This document shows positions 31,911 through 41,734 of a DNA stretch of 64,000 nt, in pieces. The translations under genes and the position numbers were made by a program. Within the stretch, counting starts at the first letter, position 1, and every line of letters starts with the position of its first letter. The notes below the pieces were generated by a model. It was not told the origin of the DNA and did not search any database. It saw only the letters and a list, made by a program, of their open reading frames with translations. Where the stretch lies: NCBI RefSeq assembly GCF_010692725.1, contig NZ_JAAFZB010000096.1, positions 496,001 to 560,000 on the forward strand, written 5' to 3'. The DNA comes from Flavihumibacter soli. GTDB lineage: Bacteria > Bacteroidota > Bacteroidia > Sphingobacteriales > Sphingobacteriaceae.

Positions 31911-32330
31911 CTATTCGTTAAGTAAGATAGAGTAGGTAATATCTACGCCGCCAGCAGCAAGCATATCATGTACTGAGCAGTACTTTTTAACTGCAAGTTC
32001 CGCAGCTCTTTCTGCCTTAGTCTGATCGATGTCGCCTTTAAGTTTAATCGTCAGGTGTATCGAAGTAAACACCTGGGGGATTTTGTCTGTCCTGACTCCC
32101 TCGGCTATTATTGACATATCTTCTATAATTTGCCTTTGTTTCCGGAGTATTTGGACAAGGTCCAGCGAAGTGCAGGAAGCCAGTGCCATCAGTACCAATT
32201 CCATTGGACGAACTCCCTGACCATGGCCACCCATGGCCGGTGAGCCTTCAATCTGGACTTTTACTTTACTGGAAGAAGCGCTTGCCTCAAAATGAACGGC
32301 GTCGTTAATGCGTGTTATTTCTATTTTCAT
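31911..32330 (-). CDS. OsmC/Ohr family protein
   Basis: ATG 32330 (MKIEITRINDAVHFEASAS) gives 139 aa; a longer frame to 32354 is not supported. OsmC/Ohr proteins are small cytoplasmic peroxidases that reduce organic hydroperoxides with two cysteines. Both are visible: LASCTSLD near residue 58 and VKKYCSVH near residue 119. The GQGVRPMELVLMALASC segment is typical. It is downstream of cysN after 122 bp of repeat-rich DNA, so it may be the tail of the sulfur operon or separate. It resembles the YhfA-like OsmC branch more than Ohr. Confidence 0.92.
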   Translation of the reverse strand: MKIEITRINDAVHFEASASSSKVKVQIEGSPAMGGHGQGVRPMELVLMALASCTSLDLVQILRKQRQIIEDMSIIAEGVRTDKIPQVFTSIHLTIKLKGDIDQTKAERAAELAVKKYCSVHDMLAAGGVDITYSILLNE

Positions 32331-32339
32331 CGTAATTCG

Positions 32340-32455
32340 GGGAGTAAGGAGCAAAGAACAAAGATTAAAGAATTAAGTCATTATTCCTTGTTCTTTTATC
32401 CTTGTTCAATCCTTTAATCCTTCTTCCTTGCTCTTTGTTCCTTGTTCTTTGATTA
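32340..32455. repeat. Imperfect inverted, word-like intergenic repeat between cysN and the OsmC gene
   Basis: The left part is made of words such as GGAGCAAAGAACAAAGA (about 32347-32370). The right part (about 32385-32452) has the complementary words CCTTGTTC, CTTTAATCC and CTCTTTGTTCC repeated several times. The two halves form an imperfect palindrome. A related fragment lies between cysD and cysH. Confidence 0.7.
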
Positions 32456-33703
32456 TTCTACCGCCGCTCTGAACATCAGAGCACCGACGGTAAGATTGGT
32501 ACGGCTATCGACTAAAATAGCGCCACCATTCGCCTTATTCTCATGATATAGATCAAAAGCTAACTCACCTGCAGTCTTAACAACAACTCTTCCGATATCA
32601 TTTAACTGGAACGTTTCAGCCTGAACCTTTTCAAGCGTGTTAATATTAACCCTATGCAATACTTCCTGAACTTTGCACCTGGTGACCTTACTGTTATGCT
32701 GAATCAGGTAAGTCACGGTAAGATCCAGGGGCCGTGTATCCATCCAGCAGAGATCAGCTTCGATAATATTGGAAAGCTTCGGCTGATGGAGCGAGTTAAC
32801 GATCAGGTCTCCGCGACTGACATCCACATTGTCCTTTAAATGAATGGTCACTGACCTGCCGGTCCCTGTTTCCTGCAACTCTGTTTCATCGGCTTCAATC
32901 CGGCTAATAGACGAACTAATACCGGATGGCAAAACGGTGACGCGGTCATTAAGGTGGAAATTCCCGCTTAATACCCGACCGGCATAGCCGCGGTAATCAT
33001 GAAGATCATCGGTCTGCGGCCTGATCACCCACTGCACGGGCATTCTTGCCTGCTGAGGGTTATCATCCTGAAGTAAGGAAACCGTCTCAAGGTGATCAAG
33101 CAGACTCTTGCCGTTATACCAACTCATTTTTTCGGACGGGTTAACGACGTTATCTCCTTTAAGTGCGCTTACGGGAATATAGGTCACGTCATGAACATTC
33201 AGGTTATTGGCAATGACCGAATAATCTTGTCTTATCTTTTCAAAAATCTCTTCATCATAACCGACCATATCCATTTTATTGATACAAACGACCACGTGCT
33301 TCAGCTCAAGGAGTGACACAATAAAGGAATGCCGGATAGTTTGCTCGACTACTCCATTCCGGGCATCAACCAGTATGATCGCAAGATTTGAATTAGAAGC
33401 CCCGGTTACCATATTCCGGGTATATTGGATGTGCCCTGGAGTATCGGCAATAATGAATTTGCGTTTATCTGTTTGAAAATATTTATATGCAACATCAATG
33501 GTTATCCCCTGTTCACGCTCGGCTTTAAGCCCGTCTGTCAGAATGGCCAGGTCGATCGTGCCGTCATCATTCTTGCGATTTGAACGCTGTAAAGCTTCTA
33601 GCTGATCAGCGAGTATGGACTCACTGTCATATAGAAGGCGTCCTATCAGCGTGCTCTTACCGTCATCAACACTTCCAGCTGTAAAAAATTTAAGTAGATC
33701 CAT
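32453..33703 (-). CDS. cysN: Sulfate adenylyltransferase GTPase subunit CysN
   Basis: With CysD it makes APS from sulfate and ATP, using GTP hydrolysis to drive the reaction. The 416-aa protein has the GTPase motifs GSVDDGKSTLIGRLL at residue 10, DTPGHIQYTRNMVTGAS near residue 91 and NKMD near residue 145, followed by two beta-barrel domains. There is no C-terminal APS kinase domain. Its ATG overlaps the TAA of cysD by one base, so the subunits are translationally coupled. Confidence 0.96.
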   Translation of the reverse strand: MDLLKFFTAGSVDDGKSTLIGRLLYDSESILADQLEALQRSNRKNDDGTIDLAILTDGLKAEREQGITIDVAYKYFQTDKRKFIIADTPGHIQYTRNMVTGASNSNLAIILVDARNGVVEQTIRHSFIVSLLELKHVVVCINKMDMVGYDEEIFEKIRQDYSVIANNLNVHDVTYIPVSALKGDNVVNPSEKMSWYNGKSLLDHLETVSLLQDDNPQQARMPVQWVIRPQTDDLHDYRGYAGRVLSGNFHLNDRVTVLPSGISSSISRIEADETELQETGTGRSVTIHLKDNVDVSRGDLIVNSLHQPKLSNIIEADLCWMDTRPLDLTVTYLIQHNSKVTRCKVQEVLHRVNINTLEKVQAETFQLNDIGRVVVKTAGELAFDLYHENKANGGAILVDSRTNLTVGALMFRAAVE

Positions 33704-34650
33704 TAAAAATATCCTCCTTTTTTGCGGTCTTCCATGGCAGCCTCGGAAACCTTGTCGTCCATGCGGGCACCTCGTTCTGAAATTTTGGAAGCCCTGATTT
33801 CTTCAATTATATCGTCTATCTGGTCAGCGTCTGATTCAATAGCTGCCGTGCAGGTCATATCTCCTACGGTTCTGAACCGAACCTTCTTCCGCGAAATTAT
33901 ATCCAGGTGATCCATGTTCAAATGATCAGCCGCCGCCATTATCTGTCCGTTACGGGTAATGACATCCCGTTCGTGTGCAAAGTAAATGGTGGGTAGTGGG
34001 ATTTTTTCCCTCCGGATATAGTTCCATACATCCAGTTCAGTCCAGTTACTGATCGGAAATACACGCACGTTCTCGCCTTTATGAATCCGGCCATTGTAGA
34101 TGTTCCATAGCTCCGGCCGCTGCCGCTTCGGGTCCCACTGGCCGAATTCATCCCTCACTGAAAATATCCGCTCCTTGGCTCTCGCTTTTTCCTCATCCCG
34201 CCGGGCTCCGCCAATGCAGGCATCAAAACCGTTTTCTGCAATAGTGTCCAGTAAGGTTATTGTCTGCAAGGCATTCCGGCTTGCATTCTTGCCTTTCTGT
34301 TCAATCACTTTACCCTGGTCAATAGAGTCCTGCACATATCCAACGATTAACTTTTCGTTTATCCGTGCAATCATGTCATCCCGGTACTCTATTGTCTCCG
34401 GAAAATTATGACCGGTGTCAATATGCACCAGGGGAAAGGGGAATTTACCCGGACGAAAGGCCTTCTCCGCAAGGCGAACCAGGGTGATGGAATCTTTACC
34501 GCCTGAAAACAACAAGGCAGGCTTTTCAAACTGGCCGGCTACTTCCCGCAATATGTAAATAGCCTCTGCTTCAAGCTGATCTAAATAATCGGTATCCTGT
34601 TTGTTCATTGGTCTGGCGATATTAGGTGTGGAATATGTTATTTCAGACAT
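33703..34650 (-). CDS. cysD: Sulfate adenylyltransferase subunit CysD
   Basis: CysD is the catalytic ATP-pyrophosphatase-type subunit that forms APS. ATG 34650 (MSEITYSTPNIARPMNKQD) gives 315 aa; starts at 34671 or 34608 are possible. The PP-loop LLFSGGKDSITLVRLAEKAF is near residue 45, and FPLVHIDTGHNFPETIEYRD and FPISNWTELDVWNYIRRE follow. The C-terminus ends with the conserved region up to DRKKGGYF. It lies between cysH and cysN in the sulfate-assimilation operon. Confidence 0.95.
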   Translation of the reverse strand: MSEITYSTPNIARPMNKQDTDYLDQLEAEAIYILREVAGQFEKPALLFSGGKDSITLVRLAEKAFRPGKFPFPLVHIDTGHNFPETIEYRDDMIARINEKLIVGYVQDSIDQGKVIEQKGKNASRNALQTITLLDTIAENGFDACIGGARRDEEKARAKERIFSVRDEFGQWDPKRQRPELWNIYNGRIHKGENVRVFPISNWTELDVWNYIRREKIPLPTIYFAHERDVITRNGQIMAAADHLNMDHLDIISRKKVRFRTVGDMTCTAAIESDADQIDDIIEEIRASKISERGARMDDKVSEAAMEDRKKGGYF

Positions 34651-34655
34651 AGGTA

Positions 34656-34706
34656 TATTTATTATGAACAAGAGCTCTTAATCCTTGTTCCCTCCTCTTT
34701 AATTCG
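34656..34706. repeat. Short word-like repeat between cysD and cysH
   Basis: The gap contains CTTAATCCTTGTTCC and CCTCTTTAATTC, the same words as in the larger repeat at 32340-32455 about 2.3 kb away. This suggests the same repeat family inserted twice in one operon. It looks like a fragment only. Confidence 0.5.
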
Positions 34707-35405
34707 TTACGAAGTGTGTAAGCCGCATTCTTTTTTATTCTGGTCTTCCCACCACCATCTGCCTGCACGGAAATCTTCCCCTTCGCGTACGGCCCTTGTA
34801 CAGGGCGCACAGCCGATGCTGGGAAATCCTTTGTCATGCAGCGGATTGTATGGGATATTTTTCTCTTTGATATAAGCTTTAACCTGGTCTAAGGTCCAGT
34901 CGAATAAAGGATGGAATTTGATGATCTGGTTCTGCGCATCCCATTCTATTCCATGCATATTCTCACGATTGGCAGACTGCTCTGCCCGAATACCCGTGAT
35001 CCAGATCTCGTTGCCTGCAAGAGCTCTCTTCAAAGGCTCGATCTTCCTAATTCCGCAGCATTCCTTACGGTTTTCAACAGATTCGTAAAAGCTGTTTGGT
35101 CCCTTTTTGCTGACCATGTTCTCCACGGCCTGCGTATCCGGGTAATAAGCATGGATGTGTTTGCCGTAAATTTCCAAGGTTCGGTTCCAAACATAATAAG
35201 TCTCAGGAAAAAGCCTCCCGGTTTCAAGCGTAAAAATCTTAATAGGAAGATCATTAGCAAAGATCATGTGCGTTAACACCTGATCCTCCCAGCCGAAGCT
35301 GCTGGAAAAAATCACCTTACCTGGAAACTTATAGGCTAATACTTCCAAAGCCTTTTCAATATCCAGCTCCCTGATTTCCTTATATATATTGTCGGCTAAA
35401 TCCAT
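34707..35405 (-). CDS. cysH: Assimilatory adenylyl-sulfate (APS) reductase CysH
   Basis: CysH reduces activated sulfate to sulfite with thioredoxin electrons. ATG 35405 (MDLADNIYKEIRELDIEKAL) gives 232 aa; an ATG at 35432 adds nine residues and overlaps the upstream gene. The PP-loop region is VIFSSSFGWEDQVLTHMIF. The CC pair in KECCGIRKIEPLKRAL near residue 115 and the GCAPCTRAV CxxC near residue 200 are the 4Fe-4S ligands that mark enzymes acting on APS rather than PAPS. The catalytic cysteine is in KKECGLHT at the C-terminus. The lack of cysC in the operon agrees with direct APS use. Confidence 0.94.
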   Translation of the reverse strand: MDLADNIYKEIRELDIEKALEVLAYKFPGKVIFSSSFGWEDQVLTHMIFANDLPIKIFTLETGRLFPETYYVWNRTLEIYGKHIHAYYPDTQAVENMVSKKGPNSFYESVENRKECCGIRKIEPLKRALAGNEIWITGIRAEQSANRENMHGIEWDAQNQIIKFHPLFDWTLDQVKAYIKEKNIPYNPLHDKGFPSIGCAPCTRAVREGEDFRAGRWWWEDQNKKECGLHTS

Positions 35406-35418
35406 TTTATTAATCGTG

Positions 35419-36585
35419 TTATTTTGATTCATCGAGCGCTGTCGCCAGATCCTCAATGATATCATCCAGATCCTCCAAACCAACCGATATTCTTATCGAC
35501 CCCGGAAAAATTCCGATCTGTGCCCTTTCATCATCATTTAATTTTGAATGAGTTGTGGAAGCCGGATGAGTAGCGATGGAACGGGAATCCCCAAGATTTG
35601 ATGTCAGGAGAATCATACCTAATCCATCCATAAAACGCTTCGCCCGTTCATATCCACCCTTAACTGTGAATGTCACAACGCCACCACCCTGTTTCATCTG
35701 ACGTTTGGCGAGTTCATATTGCGGATGCGATGGCAGAAAAGGGTACCGCACTTCTTCTACTTCAGGATGCTGTTCAAGCATCTCCGCTACCTTTAGTGCG
35801 CTTCCGCAGTGTCTGTCCATACGGAGTGTCAAGGTCTCCAGGCTTTTTGAGATTGTCCATGCGTTAAATGCAGACATTGCCGGACCAGTATGCCTGATGA
35901 AGAACATCATCTCCTTGATGAGATCAGCCCTGCCCACTACCAGGCCACCTAGTACCCGGCCCTGGCCATCCATATATTTGGTAGCTGAGTGACTTACCAG
36001 ATCTGCACCGTAAGGAATTGGTTTCTGCAAATAAGGAGTAGCAAAGCAGTTGTCGACGTTTAAAATAAAATTGTATTTCTTTTTTAATTCGCCAATCCAT
36101 TCCAGGTCGACCAGTTCCAATCCAGGATTGGACGGTGTTTCCAGGAAAACCATTTTCGTTTCTGGTCTGATGGCCTTCTCAAAATCCTCCGGCCTGGATA
36201 CATCAACATAGGTAGTCGTAATGCCCCATCTCGGAAGCAATTGAGTAAACAGCTGATGCGTAGAGCCGAAGACCGAACGGAATGCTACAATATGATCGCC
36301 GCTTCGTAAAAGACCTGCTATGGATGCAAATACCCCCGCCATCCCGGAAGAAAAGGCAAGCCCTGCTTCTGCGCCTTCCATTTCAACAATCTTATCTATC
36401 AGTTCAGCGGTATTCGGATTTGAATACCTGGAATACACATTTCCTTCTATTTCTTCGGCAAACATGGCTCGTCCATGTTCCGCATCGTCAAAGACAAAGC
36501 TTGACGTTAGGTACAATGGTACCGAATGCTCGCGATTGGATGAGCGGGTTGCCTGGCTCCTGATAAGTTTAGATTGTTCCTTCAT
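35419..36585 (-). CDS. O-succinylhomoserine sulfhydrylase (PLP-dependent trans-sulfuration family)
   Basis: The enzyme joins sulfide to an activated homoserine to give homocysteine. ATG 36585 (MKEQSKLIRSQATRSSNREH) gives 388 aa; ATG 36606 is also possible. The family marks are EHSVPLYLTSSFVFDDAEHG, GMAGVFASIAGLLRSGDHIV, and the PLP lysine in SHSATKYMDGQGRVLGG. The C-terminal SLGDSRSIATHPA-type motif reads NLGDSRSIATHPASTTHSKL. The MetZ-like assignment fits its place between sulfite reduction genes and cysH, as it would consume the sulfide made by the operon. Cystathionine gamma-synthase is the main alternative. Confidence 0.9.
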   Translation of the reverse strand: MKEQSKLIRSQATRSSNREHSVPLYLTSSFVFDDAEHGRAMFAEEIEGNVYSRYSNPNTAELIDKIVEMEGAEAGLAFSSGMAGVFASIAGLLRSGDHIVAFRSVFGSTHQLFTQLLPRWGITTTYVDVSRPEDFEKAIRPETKMVFLETPSNPGLELVDLEWIGELKKKYNFILNVDNCFATPYLQKPIPYGADLVSHSATKYMDGQGRVLGGLVVGRADLIKEMMFFIRHTGPAMSAFNAWTISKSLETLTLRMDRHCGSALKVAEMLEQHPEVEEVRYPFLPSHPQYELAKRQMKQGGGVVTFTVKGGYERAKRFMDGLGMILLTSNLGDSRSIATHPASTTHSKLNDDERAQIGIFPGSIRISVGLEDLDDIIEDLATALDESK

Positions 36586-36616
36586 TCTTAATTCTTGTTT
36601 CGGCAAAAATAGCTGT

Positions 36617-38122
36617 TTATAAATTATTGATTATAGCAGTTATAATGCTTTTTAAGCTGGCGAGTATGACGATGATTCCCACCGAAACCATGATCACTTT
36701 TACCGATATTTTATTTGATAACCTTGCAGCAATTGGTGATGCTATGGCACTTCCTATTACAAGGCCAAGCAATGCATCCCAATGAATACCGTCCAGCATT
36801 GTGATAAAGGTCAGAGAACTCATCAGCGCTATAAAAAACCGGGAAAGCTTAACCGTTCCCAGGGCATAGCGGGCATTCCGTCCACCCGCAATGAGGGATG
36901 ATAACACAATCGAACCCCAGCCGCCGCCACCTACGGCATCTATAAATCCGCCGCCGAAGCCTAAGGGGGCTACCTTTTTCAGTTTGGTGCCGGACCTTTT
37001 ACCGGCTACATTAAATGCCTTACGCAGGATAACACAACCCAGGATCAGGGTATACATGGAAATTACCGGCCTTGTATAATGACTGTAATGTTCCAGTGAT
37101 GATAAGATATACGCTCCTGAAACCGCTCCGATAATACCCGGTACTACAAGCAGCCAGAACATGCGCATGTTCACATTTTTCATCCTGTAATGCATCCAGC
37201 CAGCAATGCCATTACTCAGAATCTCTGAAACATGGACAGCCGTGCTGGCCGACGCGGGAGGAATTCCCATAGATAAGGCAAATGTGGTTGATGTTACACC
37301 ATAAGACATCCCAATAGCGCCATCGATCATAGCAAACAAAAATCCTGCACACAGGAAGTAATAAAATGTAGGATGTATGTTCTGGAAAAAACTCTGGAAA
37401 ACAGGATCGGTATTCCAGTAATAAATTGCAACGATACCCGCGCATACCGCTACCAATGCGGATATGAACCACCGCAGCTTTCTGCTCGAACTTTGTTCAA
37501 CCTGCGGTGCTACAAGTATAGCCGTTGCCTTATTTAATTCCTTCACTTTAAATGCAAAATCCCCGTTAAGGGTTGTTCTCAGTTTATTGATCTGTTGTAA
37601 TGTCTCGTCAAGTTCATCAGGTAAATTTGTCTGAAGAACTTCCTTCAGCCTTTTTGCCACAGTAGGCGATCTGCCATTTGTCGAAATTGCCAGTTTCAGA
37701 TCTCCTTTCTTCACTATCGATCCCAGGTAGAAATCACATAAATCCGGCTTATCCGCCACATTAATTAGTAAGCGGCGCTCTCTCGCGAGTTTTCTGATTG
37801 CTTCATTCAAAACCGGCTGACCAGTAGCAACTACAACCAGGTCCTTTCCGTCCAGGTCAGATTCATCAAAGCTTTTCCTGAATACCTGAACGTCGGGGTA
37901 TTCCTGCACGTAATTCTCAATTTCAGGAGCTATTCTCTCTCCTACGACAGTCACCCGGGTTTGCGGACTATTACTAAGAATTGCACGCAGTTTTTCCAGG
38001 CCAACATTCCCCGCACCCACAAGCAAAACCTGGAGTTGATTGAGTTTAAGAAAAACAGGAAATAATTCATTTCCTGTTTCAACCTTACCCGCTATGTCTT
38101 TTATGTTATTCGGCAAACTCAT
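36617..38122 (-). CDS. Fusion of siroheme-synthase-type dehydrogenase (CysG N-terminal part) with TauE/SafE (TSUP) transporter
   Basis: Residues of about 20-190 match the precorrin-2 dehydrogenase/ferrochelatase part of siroheme synthase: VLLVGAGNVGLEKLRAIL as NAD-binding start, VVVATGQPVLNEAI, INVADKPDLCDFYLGSIVKKG and ISTNGRSPTVAKRLKE. After a basic linker, residues of about 225-501 form seven or eight membrane helices with the TSUP motifs FAMIDGAIGMSYGVTSTTFAL and GGGFIDAVGGGGWGSIV. One polypeptide therefore combines siroheme cofactor synthesis with a sulfite/sulfonate-type exporter or sulfate importer. It overlaps cobA by 17 bp, which supplies the missing methyltransferase half of CysG. 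The transporter substrate is inferred from context. Confidence 0.92.
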   Translation of the reverse strand: MSLPNNIKDIAGKVETGNELFPVFLKLNQLQVLLVGAGNVGLEKLRAILSNSPQTRVTVVGERIAPEIENYVQEYPDVQVFRKSFDESDLDGKDLVVVATGQPVLNEAIRKLARERRLLINVADKPDLCDFYLGSIVKKGDLKLAISTNGRSPTVAKRLKEVLQTNLPDELDETLQQINKLRTTLNGDFAFKVKELNKATAILVAPQVEQSSSRKLRWFISALVAVCAGIVAIYYWNTDPVFQSFFQNIHPTFYYFLCAGFLFAMIDGAIGMSYGVTSTTFALSMGIPPASASTAVHVSEILSNGIAGWMHYRMKNVNMRMFWLLVVPGIIGAVSGAYILSSLEHYSHYTRPVISMYTLILGCVILRKAFNVAGKRSGTKLKKVAPLGFGGGFIDAVGGGGWGSIVLSSLIAGGRNARYALGTVKLSRFFIALMSSLTFITMLDGIHWDALLGLVIGSAIASPIAARLSNKISVKVIMVSVGIIVILASLKSIITAIINNL

Positions 38123-38891
38123 AAAAAGCCCTGATAGGCTGAAATAACGGATGCAGTCCTACAACATCCCCGAACACAATGATCGCAGGCGAATCAATCC
38201 CCTGATCATCGGCTGCCTCAACTATCGTATCAACGGTTGCAACGACTAATTTTTCATTTTCCATCGAGCCGCTCTGAATAACTGCCACAGGTAAACGGTG
38301 CTTTCCTTCGGCTTTAAAGATCTCGGCAATCTCTGCGAGCCTTTTAATTCCCATCAGAACGACAACCGTAGCGCGTGACTTTGCTGCCTGGTAAAGATCC
38401 TCGGAAATACTTCCCGAAGCCGTAGTGCCGGTAACTACCCAAAAACTCTCGCTCAATCCACGGTGCGTTACCGGGATACCCTGAAGTCCGGGAACTGCAA
38501 TTGAACTTGAGATCCCGGGAATCACTTCCGCCGCAATACTGTAAGAAGCAGCAAAGTCGAGTTCCTCATAACCCCGGCCAAATACAAACGGATCGCCGCC
38601 TTTCAAACGTACCACGTGACCATAGTTCAGAGCATAGTCAATCATAAGTTTATTAACGGCATCCTGTGAATAGGAATGATCGCCGGAACGCTTACCGACA
38701 AAAACTCGTGTCGCATTCTTCGGGGCAAAGTCCAGCAGATCTTCATTTACAAGTGCGTCATATAAAACGACATTTGCTGATTTCAGGGCTTTAATAGCTT
38801 TTAGTGTAATCAACTCCGCATCACCCGGACCGGCACCTACCAATGTAATTTTCGGTTCTTTAACCGCGGTTTTAACTTTTGTCTGTATCAT
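38106..38891 (-). CDS. cobA: Uroporphyrinogen-III C-methyltransferase
   Basis: The enzyme methylates uroporphyrinogen III twice with SAM to precorrin-2, the first step to siroheme. The 261-aa protein has the motifs ITLVGAGPGDAELITLKAIKAL, YDALV, VFVGKRSGDHSYSQDAVN, VVRLKGGDPFVFGRGYEEL and VIPGISSSIAVPGLQGIPVTHRG (motif parts). It overlaps the sulfite reductase gene by 4 bp and the CysG-TauE gene by 17 bp, so the three are translationally coupled. Siroheme is the cofactor of the upstream reductase. Confidence 0.96.
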   Translation of the reverse strand: MIQTKVKTAVKEPKITLVGAGPGDAELITLKAIKALKSANVVLYDALVNEDLLDFAPKNATRVFVGKRSGDHSYSQDAVNKLMIDYALNYGHVVRLKGGDPFVFGRGYEELDFAASYSIAAEVIPGISSSIAVPGLQGIPVTHRGLSESFWVVTGTTASGSISEDLYQAAKSRATVVVLMGIKRLAEIAEIFKAEGKHRLPVAVIQSGSMENEKLVVATVDTIVEAADDQGIDSPAIIVFGDVVGLHPLFQPIRAFYEFAE

Positions 38892-40987
38892 ACTGAAATA
38901 AGCGTCTCCCTATCCGCCTTAACTTTATTAATAAAATTCGTTGCAGCCTCAAGATACGCGGATGCGAATTCCTGAGTCGGCTCGTTCTTGTTTATCTGCA
39001 AAACCAGATCACTGAAGGTAGTTCCGGTTATAAATCGTTTGTCCTGAAACTGCTCATCAAAGTCTTTGATTATACCTGTCTGTGTGCTGCTGTTAACGCC
39101 CTTGTCGAGCAATAATGCTTTTGCGGCACTCACGAATACACTATAAGCATGGTAAATTGAATCTGCATAAGCATCATTACGGAAAGATTCCTGTGCCCAT
39201 TCGAGTTTTTCTTCAGTCTCGAGCAGCAGCGTTGCCACAAGATCTATCATCACTCCAGCACACTCACCTACACCAATCGCAGTCTGAAAAATTTCTTCAT
39301 GACCCCAATCAACATAGTCCGTATCTGTTAGTGTCGTGCTATCAGCGACAGGCTTCAGGAGCTGGTAGAAATAATCCTTGCCCTGGCGATCATAGTAATC
39401 ATTGTATAGCTCATCAGGTATGCTGTTGTCGTAATAGTCATTCAAAACAATCCGCAGAACAATTGTCGCTCTCTTGGATGGTACTTTGATGATCTTCTCA
39501 GCCGCTCTTCCTGCACCATCACCTACTACACCACCGCCTAGCAACACCTGTACTGCCGGCACTACTTTACCGTTTGCTTTAAGCGAACTTCCATGGAAGC
39601 CAATATGTGCAAGACCATGCTGACCACAGGAATTCATACAGCCGCTGATTTTTATCTTAATATCACTGTTATAGATCAGATCCTCATATTCTTCATAGAT
39701 CACGTTCTCCAGAACTCTCGATAACTCCGTACTGTTGGAAATTCCCAAATTACATGTGTCTGTTCCAGGACAGGTAGTCACATCCGCCACACTGTCAAAA
39801 CCCGCATCAGCAAGGCCGAGAGAAGCAAGACCGGCGTATAAGGATACCAGTGATTCCCGGCGAACAAATTTCAGCAACAAGCCCTGGTTTTGAGTGATCC
39901 GGATCTCGTCAGCAACCAGTTCTTTTATTACATCTACAAATTTCCGGGCTATCTCAGTTGAAATGTCTCCTGTGGTAACCTTTACGTAGACACCATAAAA
40001 GCCCGCCTGCTTTTGCTCAAAGACATTTGTAGTCAGCCATCGCTCAAAAGCCAGCGGATCGGTAATTTCAGGAACGGCTCCTGCGACTGGCTCAGGGATT
40101 TCCGGCACAGCTATAGTATCTCTGTTTACTTTATAAAGCTTCGACTTATTAGCAGTCCGTTCTTCATCAATAAGACGAAGCACCTCTTCGAGGCCTATCT
40201 TCTGGATAAGGAATTTAAACCGGGCTTTATTCCGGTTATTACGCTCGCCATGACGGTCGAATACCCGTAAGGCAGTTTCTATATATGGGATTAGCTCGTC
40301 TTCATGGAGGAATTCATAGACTACATGGGCAATGTAAGGCTGTGCGCCCAGGCCACCTCCAAGCAGTACTTTGAATCCCCGAGTTTCAACACCGTTCTCG
40401 ATACGCACTTTCGGTATAAATCCAAGATCATGAATGAAAGTGAAAGCTGTATCCCTTTCACTTGAAGAGAACGCGATCTTAAATTTCCGACCCATTTCCT
40501 GACATATCGGATTCCTCAGGAAATACTCAAAAGTTGCCTGAGCATAAGGTGATACATCAAACGGTTCATCAGGATCTATACCGGCAGTTGGCGAGGCAGT
40601 AACATTCCTCACTGTATTACCACAGGCTTCACGAATTGTAACGTCATCCTGTTCCAGCTTTGCCCATAACTCTGGGGTCCGGTCAAGGCTTACGTAATGG
40701 ATCTGAATATCCTGACGGGTGGTGAGATGCAGATTGCTACTAGCGTACTCATCCGAAATATCCGCAATCCGTAAAAGTTGTTTGAAAGTTACTTTTCCAA
40801 AAGGCAGCTTGATCCGTATCATCTGAACGCCGGGCTGACGCTGACCATAAATACCCCGCGCCAGCCTGAGGCTCCGGAACTTGTCATCGTGAATCTTACC
40901 CTCGCGATATAACCGGATCTTTTTTTCAAGATCGATGATATCCCTTTGTACTACGGGGTTTTCTAATTCGGTTCTAAAACTATCCAT
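38888..40987 (-). CDS. Siroheme sulfite (or nitrite) reductase with C-terminal HEPN-like domain
   Basis: The protein should reduce sulfite to sulfide, judged by its operon. Residues of about 1-560 are the sulfite/nitrite reductase fold, with LHLTTRQDIQIHYV in the N-terminal half. The 4Fe-4S/siroheme cysteines are TCPGTDTCNLG (C-x5-C, near residue 404) and SGCMNSCGQHG (C-x3-C, near residue 450). Residues of about 580-690 form an extra helical block with the HEPN-like pattern WAQESFRNDAYADSIYHAYS and AAKALLLDKGV. I see no RX4-6H nuclease motif, so this is likely a binding or structural domain. The enzyme is a ferredoxin-type single subunit, with no flavoprotein CysJ in the window. Confidence 0.92.
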   Translation of the reverse strand: MDSFRTELENPVVQRDIIDLEKKIRLYREGKIHDDKFRSLRLARGIYGQRQPGVQMIRIKLPFGKVTFKQLLRIADISDEYASSNLHLTTRQDIQIHYVSLDRTPELWAKLEQDDVTIREACGNTVRNVTASPTAGIDPDEPFDVSPYAQATFEYFLRNPICQEMGRKFKIAFSSSERDTAFTFIHDLGFIPKVRIENGVETRGFKVLLGGGLGAQPYIAHVVYEFLHEDELIPYIETALRVFDRHGERNNRNKARFKFLIQKIGLEEVLRLIDEERTANKSKLYKVNRDTIAVPEIPEPVAGAVPEITDPLAFERWLTTNVFEQKQAGFYGVYVKVTTGDISTEIARKFVDVIKELVADEIRITQNQGLLLKFVRRESLVSLYAGLASLGLADAGFDSVADVTTCPGTDTCNLGISNSTELSRVLENVIYEEYEDLIYNSDIKIKISGCMNSCGQHGLAHIGFHGSSLKANGKVVPAVQVLLGGGVVGDGAGRAAEKIIKVPSKRATIVLRIVLNDYYDNSIPDELYNDYYDRQGKDYFYQLLKPVADSTTLTDTDYVDWGHEEIFQTAIGVGECAGVMIDLVATLLLETEEKLEWAQESFRNDAYADSIYHAYSVFVSAAKALLLDKGVNSSTQTGIIKDFDEQFQDKRFITGTTFSDLVLQINKNEPTQEFASAYLEAATNFINKVKADRETLISV

Positions 40988-40995
40988 GGTCTATT

Positions 40996-41033
40996 TAATA
41001 AAAAGCCTCTTCTGCTTTGGGCTGAAGAGGCTT
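40996..41033 (-). terminator. Attenuator-like intrinsic terminator directly upstream of the sulfite reductase gene
   Basis: On the minus strand AAGCCTCTTC (41033-41024) pairs perfectly with GAAGAGGCTT (41012-41003) around an 11-base loop, followed by TTTATT. It ends about 15 bases before the sulfite reductase ATG. A terminator in this place, after a short Met/Cys-containing leader ORF, looks like an attenuator controlling the whole sulfur operon. It could also simply end the Rrf2 gene transcript. Confidence 0.75.
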
Positions 41034-41068
41034 AGATCTTATTATGCGGTTAATACATCCAGTCATCT

Positions 41069-41110
41069 TCAAATTTGTTCACGCATCATATAGCAGTAAT
41101 GCATGGGCAT
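41069..41110 (-). CDS. Putative Met/Cys-containing leader peptide of the sulfate-assimilation operon
   Basis: A short frame reads MPMHYCYMMREQI then TGA: 13 residues with four methionines and one cysteine. It starts about 40 bases after a TAnnTTTG promoter box and ends about 36 bases before the attenuator hairpin. The last bases of the ORF and those after it (TTTGAAGATGACTGG) include GAAGA, which could pair with TCTTC of the terminator stem and act as antiterminator. Methionine and cysteine are the end products of this operon, so ribosome stalling at these codons would sense their supply. The frame is too short for statistical support. Confidence 0.6.
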   Translation of the reverse strand: MPMHYCYMMREQI

Positions 41111-41150
41111 ATTGAGACAGATCAGATATAGTGCGTTTTGTATCACGGTT

Positions 41151-41158
41151 CAAATATA
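41151..41158 (-). promoter_or_regulatory. Candidate -7 promoter box of the sulfur operon
   Basis: TATATTTG on the minus strand fits the Bacteroidota -7 consensus TAnnTTTG and lies in the gap between the Rrf2 gene and the leader peptide. I do not find a well-placed TTG at -33. The surrounding TATATACATTATATATA is partly palindromic and could be a regulator site. Confidence 0.4.
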
Positions 41159-41201
41159 TATAATGTATATAGAATTAGTAGTCTTTATTTAGAAAAAAAT
41201 A

Positions 41202-41648
41202 TTAAATCACTGTTTGGGAGCCTATGAGCCGGTTTTCCCGATCAATTACATCCGCAATACTGGTCTCAGAAAGAATTTTTAGTGAGGCATTGCGTACATC
41301 TGTGAACACATCGCGGATTCCGCAGGTACCTTCATTCAGGCATTCCTCACACCTTTGATAGAAATTCAGGCTCACACAGGGCAACAGCGCGATCGGTCCT
41401 CCCGTGATCCTTAGCACCTGTACCAGGAAGATCTCTTTCGGATCTTTGATAAGGCTATAGCCGCCGCCCGCACCTTTTTTACTGTAAAGCAACCCTGAAT
41501 TGCGAAGGTCCAGAAGTATCTGCTCCAGAAACTTTTTCGGAATATGCTCTTCGGTAGCTATGCGGGATATCTGCATAGGTTCCTTGCCAAAGTTTTTCCC
41601 CATAATAACGAGAGCCTTGATTGCGTAGCGTGTTTTTTTTGAAAGCAT
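41202..41648 (-). CDS. Rrf2 family transcriptional regulator
   Basis: ATG 41648 (MLSKKTRYAIKALVIMGKNF) gives 148 aa; a frame to 41696 adds 16 unsupported residues. The winged-helix signature RIATEEHIPKKFLEQILLDLRNSGLLYSKKGAGGGY (in parts) marks the Rrf2 family (IscR, CymR, NsrR, RsrR). The C-terminal half has four cysteines in PCVSLNFYQRCEECLNEGTC, which could bind an iron-sulfur cluster. It is directly upstream of the sulfate-assimilation operon on the same strand, like CymR-type control of cysteine metabolism. It is most likely the operon regulator; the effector is unknown. Confidence 0.93.
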   Translation of the reverse strand: MLSKKTRYAIKALVIMGKNFGKEPMQISRIATEEHIPKKFLEQILLDLRNSGLLYSKKGAGGGYSLIKDPKEIFLVQVLRITGGPIALLPCVSLNFYQRCEECLNEGTCGIRDVFTDVRNASLKILSETSIADVIDRENRLIGSQTVI

Positions 41649-41734
41649 TCTCTTTTTAACGTAGTTTAATACCTGCTGATGGTCAGACCATGGCAAGGTA
41701 GCGATCCCTCCGGCAAATTGATGCCGGTATTCTA

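Follow-up and report, generated by a model that had tools for sequence, protein, structure and literature searches.

A leader ORF with cysteine and methionine codons very probably attenuates transcription of a sulfate-assimilation operon in Flavihumibacter soli

Ribosome-mediated attenuators of the trp, his, leu, thr and phe type are known from the Proteobacteria. Passages of PMC1262725 extend trp attenuators to the Actinobacteria and give cys leader peptides predicted ahead of Mycobacterium cys operons, without a conserved terminator hairpin. Mycobacteria are reported to have leaderless polycysteine short ORFs that act in attenuation by Cys supply (Canestrari 2020, as cited in passages of PMC9031893 and PMC13236596). 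The uORFC-8-2 motif lies upstream of a cysteinyl-tRNA synthetase gene, and ribosome-mediated attenuation has been proposed for it (PMC8632094); the word element "bacteroid" has no occurrence in the passages of that paper on the motif. Amino-acid control in Bacteroidota is little described. The initial annotation of the present locus said as much of leader-peptide attenuation, a statement that needs softening in view of clues from Flavobacterium (PMC9723704, in part) and of the Bacteroid-trp RNA that a table of PMC2864571 lists. For Flavobacterium psychrophilum, passages of PMC9723704 give clues to leader-peptide attenuation of amino-acid operons, with 5' elements upstream of pheA and hisG, and for Bacteroides thetaiotaomicron a passage of PMC7366714 mentions sORFs reminiscent of leader peptides. 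Descriptions of Cys/Met leader peptides in Bacteroidota were not found in the literature searched, a body of work outside which most subscription papers lie.

The locus analyzed here lies in a 64-kb stretch of the Flavihumibacter soli genome (the window), and the leader and the genes described around it are on its minus strand. By Pfam, the first operon gene encodes sulfite reductase (NIR_SIR domains, 40987..38888). It is followed on the same strand (38891..31911) by genes for a tetrapyrrole methylase, a siroheme-synthase/TauE fusion, a Cys/Met-metabolism PLP enzyme, two PAPS-reductase-domain proteins (CysH-like and CysD-like), a CysN-like GTPase and OsmC. Strand and spacing suggest that the genes from sulfite reductase through OsmC form one operon, the end products of which are Cys and, via the PLP enzyme, probably Met. 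In the fusion gene, siroheme-synthase N-terminal domains are joined to a TauE/SafE sulfite exporter domain (36617-38122), and the sulfite reductase (38888-40987) has a match to the HEPN domain at its C-terminus (Pfam E 7.8e-6). Directly upstream of the leader lies the gene of an Rrf2-family regulator (ATG 41648, stop 41202; Pfam match on 41645-41202), a possible second layer of control.

The TAnnTTTG (-7 type) promoter box that had been read on the minus strand is present as TATATTTG at 41158-41151, beside a CTACTA element at 41181-41176, and a similar stretch is found in relatives. In Flavobacterium psychrophilum the sigmaA box occupies -12 to -5 from the transcription start (PMC9723704, in part). 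With that spacing the G of the GTG at 41146-41144, 4 nt past the promoter box, would be +1 and the mRNA would be leaderless; from the box position we predict that the leader mRNA starts at or next to this GTG. The ORF that opens at this predicted +1, MIQNALYLICLNMPMHYCYMMREQI and a stop codon (41146..41069), has 25 amino acids, among them two Cys and four internal Met. The initial annotation had rested on a 13-residue Met/Cys ORF, MPMHYCYMMREQI, running from ATG 41110 to TGA 41069. That ORF is present and forms the C-terminal part of the longer one: the frame is open upstream of ATG 41110, and the conserved start is GTG 41146 and not ATG 41110. The two Cys codons of the window ORF are separate, and thus not contiguous as in the mycobacterial polycysteine type.

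A perfect 10-bp hairpin with a T-run had also been noted before sulfite reductase, and it is indeed there: AAGCCTCTTC and GAAGAGGCTT pair over 10 bp, with one A.A mismatch and two further GC pairs. The stem (41033-41003, -16.9 kcal/mol) is separated from the sulfite reductase ATG (40987) by 15 nt, and together with the T-run it makes up the predicted intrinsic terminator (41033-41000). Between the T-run and this ATG lie 12 nt, so transcripts from the promoter box must cross the terminator. The predicted antiterminator pairs UUGAAGA (5' arm, 41072-41066), which overlaps the leader stop codon, with UCUUCAG (3' arm, 41028-41022) within the 5' arm of the terminator. The leader region folds with z of about -4.2, none of 200 dinucleotide shuffles being equally stable, and the terminator pattern occurs once within the 64-kb window against zero expected. 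A simple terminator scan over 40700-41700 returned no terminator-like sites; it probably did not list the window hairpin because it allows loops of 3-8, whereas the perfect stem encloses 11.

We consider it very probable, from sequence and folding models, that this leader controls the sulfate-assimilation (cys/met) operon by ribosome-mediated transcription attenuation, in response to Cys and probably to Met. Transcription would start at or next to the GTG, and the mRNA would open with the leader ORF. With ample Cys-tRNA (and probably Met-tRNA), the ribosome would reach the stop codon and cover UUGAAGA; the terminator would then form, and transcription would end before sulfite reductase. When Cys or Met is scarce, the ribosome would stall at the upstream UGC and AUG codons, UUGAAGA would be paired to the 5' arm of the terminator, and transcription would go on into the operon. 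We infer the transcription start, the stalling, the termination and the response to Cys and Met from the arrangement of the parts. The initial annotation had proposed attenuation as well, and conservation and the predicted fold bear it out in large part; what changes is the start, which is the upstream GTG and predicted to be leaderless.

Within the genus, 20 genomes were searched including the window's own, and the sulfite reductase gene was present in 17. By inspection, 15 of these 17 loci, the window included, have the whole layout of promoter box, short ORF, terminator and, close to the stop codon, a GAAGA-like segment. The check that the initial annotation had set for its proposal, conservation of start, Met/Cys codons and hairpin, thus came out in its favour for most close relatives: the layout is seen in 14 of 16 same-genus relatives with the gene and is lacking in two, L084 and L085. 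These two keep the promoter-like stretch, but by inspection they are without a Cys leader and without a terminator; their sulfite reductases are 80% (L084, the second most similar) and 76% (L085) identical to that of the window. The most similar sulfite reductase (81%) belongs to L083, where a GTG likewise lies 4 bases past the same box and the hand-read peptide is MKNNKLNMSLSNMPLCCLIMQLVQF; its terminator carries a mismatch and is below the strict cut-off. L095 and L096 have a TATATTTA box instead of TATATTTG, and the L095 ORF ends before its Cys codons. In L095 a TAATG restart, located about 150 nt ahead of the gene, would by hand-reading yield MICCYRAS, a short Cys-Cys ORF. Across the genus loci the stop position shifts and the GAAGA-like segment stays.

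A promoter stretch of the CTAC-plus-TATA..TTTG kind (41181-41151 in the window) is similar in four loci that lack the leader (L002, L025, L040 and L046; L002 comes from the same genome as L084), and the Rrf2 protein may have an operator within this stretch. It could be argued that Rrf2 controls the promoter, that the hairpin is a constitutive terminator of the Rrf2 transcript and that the ORF is incidental. The Rrf2 gene is directly upstream, and the promoter stretch recurs where the leader is missing, both as this explanation would have it. A constitutive terminator, however, would block the operon, given that the hairpin stands downstream of the conserved promoter and upstream of the first gene. 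Left unexplained are also the Cys/Met enrichment and the cross-clade arm complementarity described below, and the poly-Cys ORFs upstream of sulfite reductase in distant families. We therefore regard constitutive termination with an incidental ORF as very unlikely.

In the window's family, sequence analysis and computation bring out the parts of the leader, their conservation, the enrichment in Cys and Met codons and the complementarity of the arms. Named loci were the best 80 of at least 587 relatives (among 589 pattern stretches). In addition, whole-genome searches gave a match in 116 of 121 genomes of the order, and any match, many of them weak, in 77 of 198 genomes of the phylum; at most 30 loci were used from each. 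The listed loci provided 154 upstream regions, 133 of them unique, or 132 after L135 was recognized as a duplicate of L064, and 107 of the 132 belong to the window's family. A strict filter found the terminator in 85 of the 133 listed unique upstream regions, all groups taken together, and terminator plus ORF in 73 of 133 (L135, later merged, had failed the filter). In 77 of the 107 listed family regions the box is followed within 16 nt by ATG or GTG, codon content being disregarded. The start codon is ATG in 71 of these 77 ORFs and GTG in six, and in 44 of the 77 it stands exactly 4 nt past the box, which equals transcript +1 if the box is at -12 to -5. The 30 listed family regions that fail the box/start rule include some real absences; L056, L060, L095 and L096 are also among them, with a leader-like ORF present or another filter passed.

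Cys makes up 12.3% and Met 9.2% of the 1580 residues after the start in these 77 listed family ORFs, against means of 4.3% and 3.2% (maxima 5.7% and 4.7%) in 100 shuffles. At least two Cys are found in 67 of the 77, as compared with a mean of 9.6 and a maximum of 16 in the shuffles. An adjacent Cys pair occurs in 57 of the 77 and is absent from the window peptide. Both Cys codons are in use in the listed family ORFs (TGT 105, TGC 90). Read off-frame, these ORFs contain 7.9% Cys in the +1 frame, in part since an ATG with C or T after it appears there as TGC or TGT, and 1.2% in the +2 frame. The spacing of 4 nt is by itself weak evidence, since TAnnTTTG-N4-ATG occurs in the window's own genome at 85 places, little above the 66 of a reversed control; several of the 28 places inspected precede long ORFs.

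Complementarity between the segment near the leader stop and the terminator is found across clades as well. Pairing was computed between the terminator 5' arm plus loop and the RNA that runs from four codons ahead of the leader stop up to the terminator. Own pairing averaged -10.26 kcal/mol over 71 loci, as compared with -8.61 kcal/mol when partners were permuted and -9.68 kcal/mol when they were permuted within clades, and in both cases none of 300 permutations was as good. Locus-specific co-change is thus clear across clades, but when the test was repeated clade by clade, the within-clade signal came from clade B only (none of 1000 permutations as good over its 35 loci). In clade A, the window's genus (13 loci), own pairs were no better than swapped ones (844 of 1000 permutations equal to or better than own), and the same holds for clades C (843 of 1000), D (314 of 1000) and E (1000 of 1000, two loci); in the clade matrix, A segments pair better with C arms than with their own. 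Co-changing pentamers were found in clades B and C: GGCTA/TAGCC in 5 loci, GGCTG/CAGCC in 7, GGTTG/CAGCC in 5, GACTG/CAGTC in 4, GACTG/CGGTC in 2 and GGCTG/CAGTC in 3, neither pentamer being present in 26 of the 71 loci. They are absent from the window's genus, where the window itself has the incomplete match GACTG/CAGCC. In that genus the UUGAAGA/UCUUCA complementarity is conserved, without co-change. An initial comparison of the duplexes with shuffled sequences had given a modest result: the mean z was -1.2, 20 of 73 loci ranked within the best 5%, own partners beat swapped ones in 3580 of 5240 comparisons, and the window had a z of -0.4.

Stalled and terminating ribosomes were represented in a folding model in which nine bases beyond the A site are covered and the RNA is cut before the terminator 3' arm. 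A ribosome placed on the last Cys codon gave a higher predicted occupancy of the terminator 5' arm than one placed on the stop codon; this was so in 68 of 70 loci, with means of 0.66 and 0.32. The difference of 0.34 fell to 0.08 with shuffled spacers; it exceeded the shuffled mean in 65 of 70 loci and beat all 20 shuffles in 19 of 70, including the window (0.51 vs 0.06). The predicted window fold agrees with the earlier proposal that GAAGA pairs with the terminator 5' arm: it does so when the upstream RNA is masked as far as nine bases beyond the last Cys codon, and the pairing is predicted to be lost once the mask extends past the stop codon. Predicted energies for the window RNA are -12.4 kcal/mol in the stalled state, -1.6 kcal/mol in the stop state and -16.9 kcal/mol for the terminator, and by computation antiterminator and terminator would exclude each other. 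With no ribosome, the cut window RNA is also predicted to adopt the antiterminator (0.65), and the full-length RNA a closed leader plus the terminator.

Two distant families have poly-Cys leaders upstream of the same gene. Matches were obtained in 24 of 61 genomes of f5 (same class), some of them weak, and in 8 of 20 genomes of f25 (the order of G173, same phylum). Runs of three or more Cys codons occur in an ORF upstream of the gene in 26 of the 31 f5/f25 loci inspected (9 of 9 in f25 and 17 of 22 in f5, where L222, one of the five misses, starts inside the gene). The Cys run is accompanied by a strong terminator in 25 of the 31. The longest runs have nine Cys (L213, L220), and the start codons of the f5/f25 leaders are uncertain. 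The 31 loci showed no TAnnTTTG box at leaderless spacing, which limits the leaderless claim to the window's family. In L209 and L219 two poly-Cys leader ORFs stand in tandem upstream of one sulfite reductase, and in L209 the stretch separating them contains a terminator-like hairpin. The f4 loci inspected had no leader. The pattern of four Cys codons plus Met-Met was matched in 4 of 395 genomes; L202 and L203 are f5 leaders, whereas L204 (inside a coding ORF) and L201 (antisense to an ORF) look like chance.

Cys/Met content recurring over so many species might also be expected of a functional small protein, for example a metal-binding one, that is co-regulated with the operon. The peptides, however, vary between clades outside the Cys/Met part, which is the only part that is alike. 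Some f25 peptides end in SVSRRC and others in CFREG, and from a comparison of the peptides these tails look like two reading frames of a single RNA element. In the genus, furthermore, it is the stop position that moves and the GAAGA-like segment that stays. A functional small protein is accordingly highly improbable to us. Riboswitches commonly sit in a 5' leader with a terminator ahead of a sulfur operon, and the window has just such a leader. A riboswitch for cysteine, S-adenosylmethionine or another metabolite, with an unimportant ORF, is nevertheless barely credible: Rfam 15 at the gathering threshold found only a tRNA in the whole window and no match to known families of riboswitches or RNA leaders, relaxing E to 10 brought up nothing relevant (a single snoRNA hit of 13 bits, within the Rrf2 gene), and what recurs between loci is the codons and the arm complement, the remainder varying by clade.

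Ribosome-mediated attenuation, the reading that we prefer, may be a wider habit of this genome, as a Trp-Trp leader and a His-rich short ORF are found there. Upstream of a TrpE-like gene (L238, contig C96 near 1199700) the box is followed by MMIVLNTCNWWSFFN with Trp-Trp and then by a GC-rich terminator-like hairpin and a T-run. Upstream of HisG (L237, contig C94 near 96500) a His-rich short ORF, MIKVYTQHVHFHHRHERR, was recognized by eye; the box/start rule did not pick it up. The stretch inspected upstream of the dihydroxy-acid dehydratase gene of the same genome had no leader.

Beyond the single locus, we lean slightly towards a widespread and old class of Cys/Met attenuators in Bacteroidota, which would make expression of the whole operon depend on Cys and Met supply together. 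Such leaders would carry from one to nine Cys codons, would sometimes stand in tandem and, in the window's family, would have a leaderless start with AUG or GUG at +1. Bacteroidota would thereby gain a well-defined Cys/Met-responsive switch over a whole pathway, seen in f1, f5 and f25. The window's family seems to combine leaderless initiation with intrinsic-terminator attenuation, a pairing that makes it testable how a ribosome loading at +1 keeps up with RNA polymerase.

The mechanism itself is ordinary and apparently new in place and reach. Like the classical attenuators, the window has a leader ORF with regulatory codons, an antiterminator and a terminator predicted to share one arm, and a biosynthetic operon downstream; unlike them, it combines Cys with Met, serves sulfate assimilation, belongs to Bacteroidota and has an mRNA predicted to start at the start codon. 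The Flavobacterium and Bacteroides cases are from the same phylum and concern, in the passages of PMC9723704, amino-acid operons, whereas those passages name no Cys/Met or sulfur leader. The uORFC-8-2 motif likewise has a short upstream ORF, a terminator and proposed attenuation, but as portrayed in passages of PMC8632094 its Cys codons are tandem and it regulates a tRNA synthetase gene, not a biosynthetic operon. With the mycobacterial polycysteine ORFs, as the citing passages portray them, the window shares a short ORF with Cys codons and a probable attenuation by Cys supply; the mycobacterial ORFs are leaderless, and for the window and 44 of the 77 family ORFs the box spacing would predict such a start. 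It differs from them in its predicted intrinsic terminator and complementary segment, in the enrichment of Met codons and in Cys codons that are not contiguous, and by analogy the likeness looks like convergence with these leaderless ORFs.
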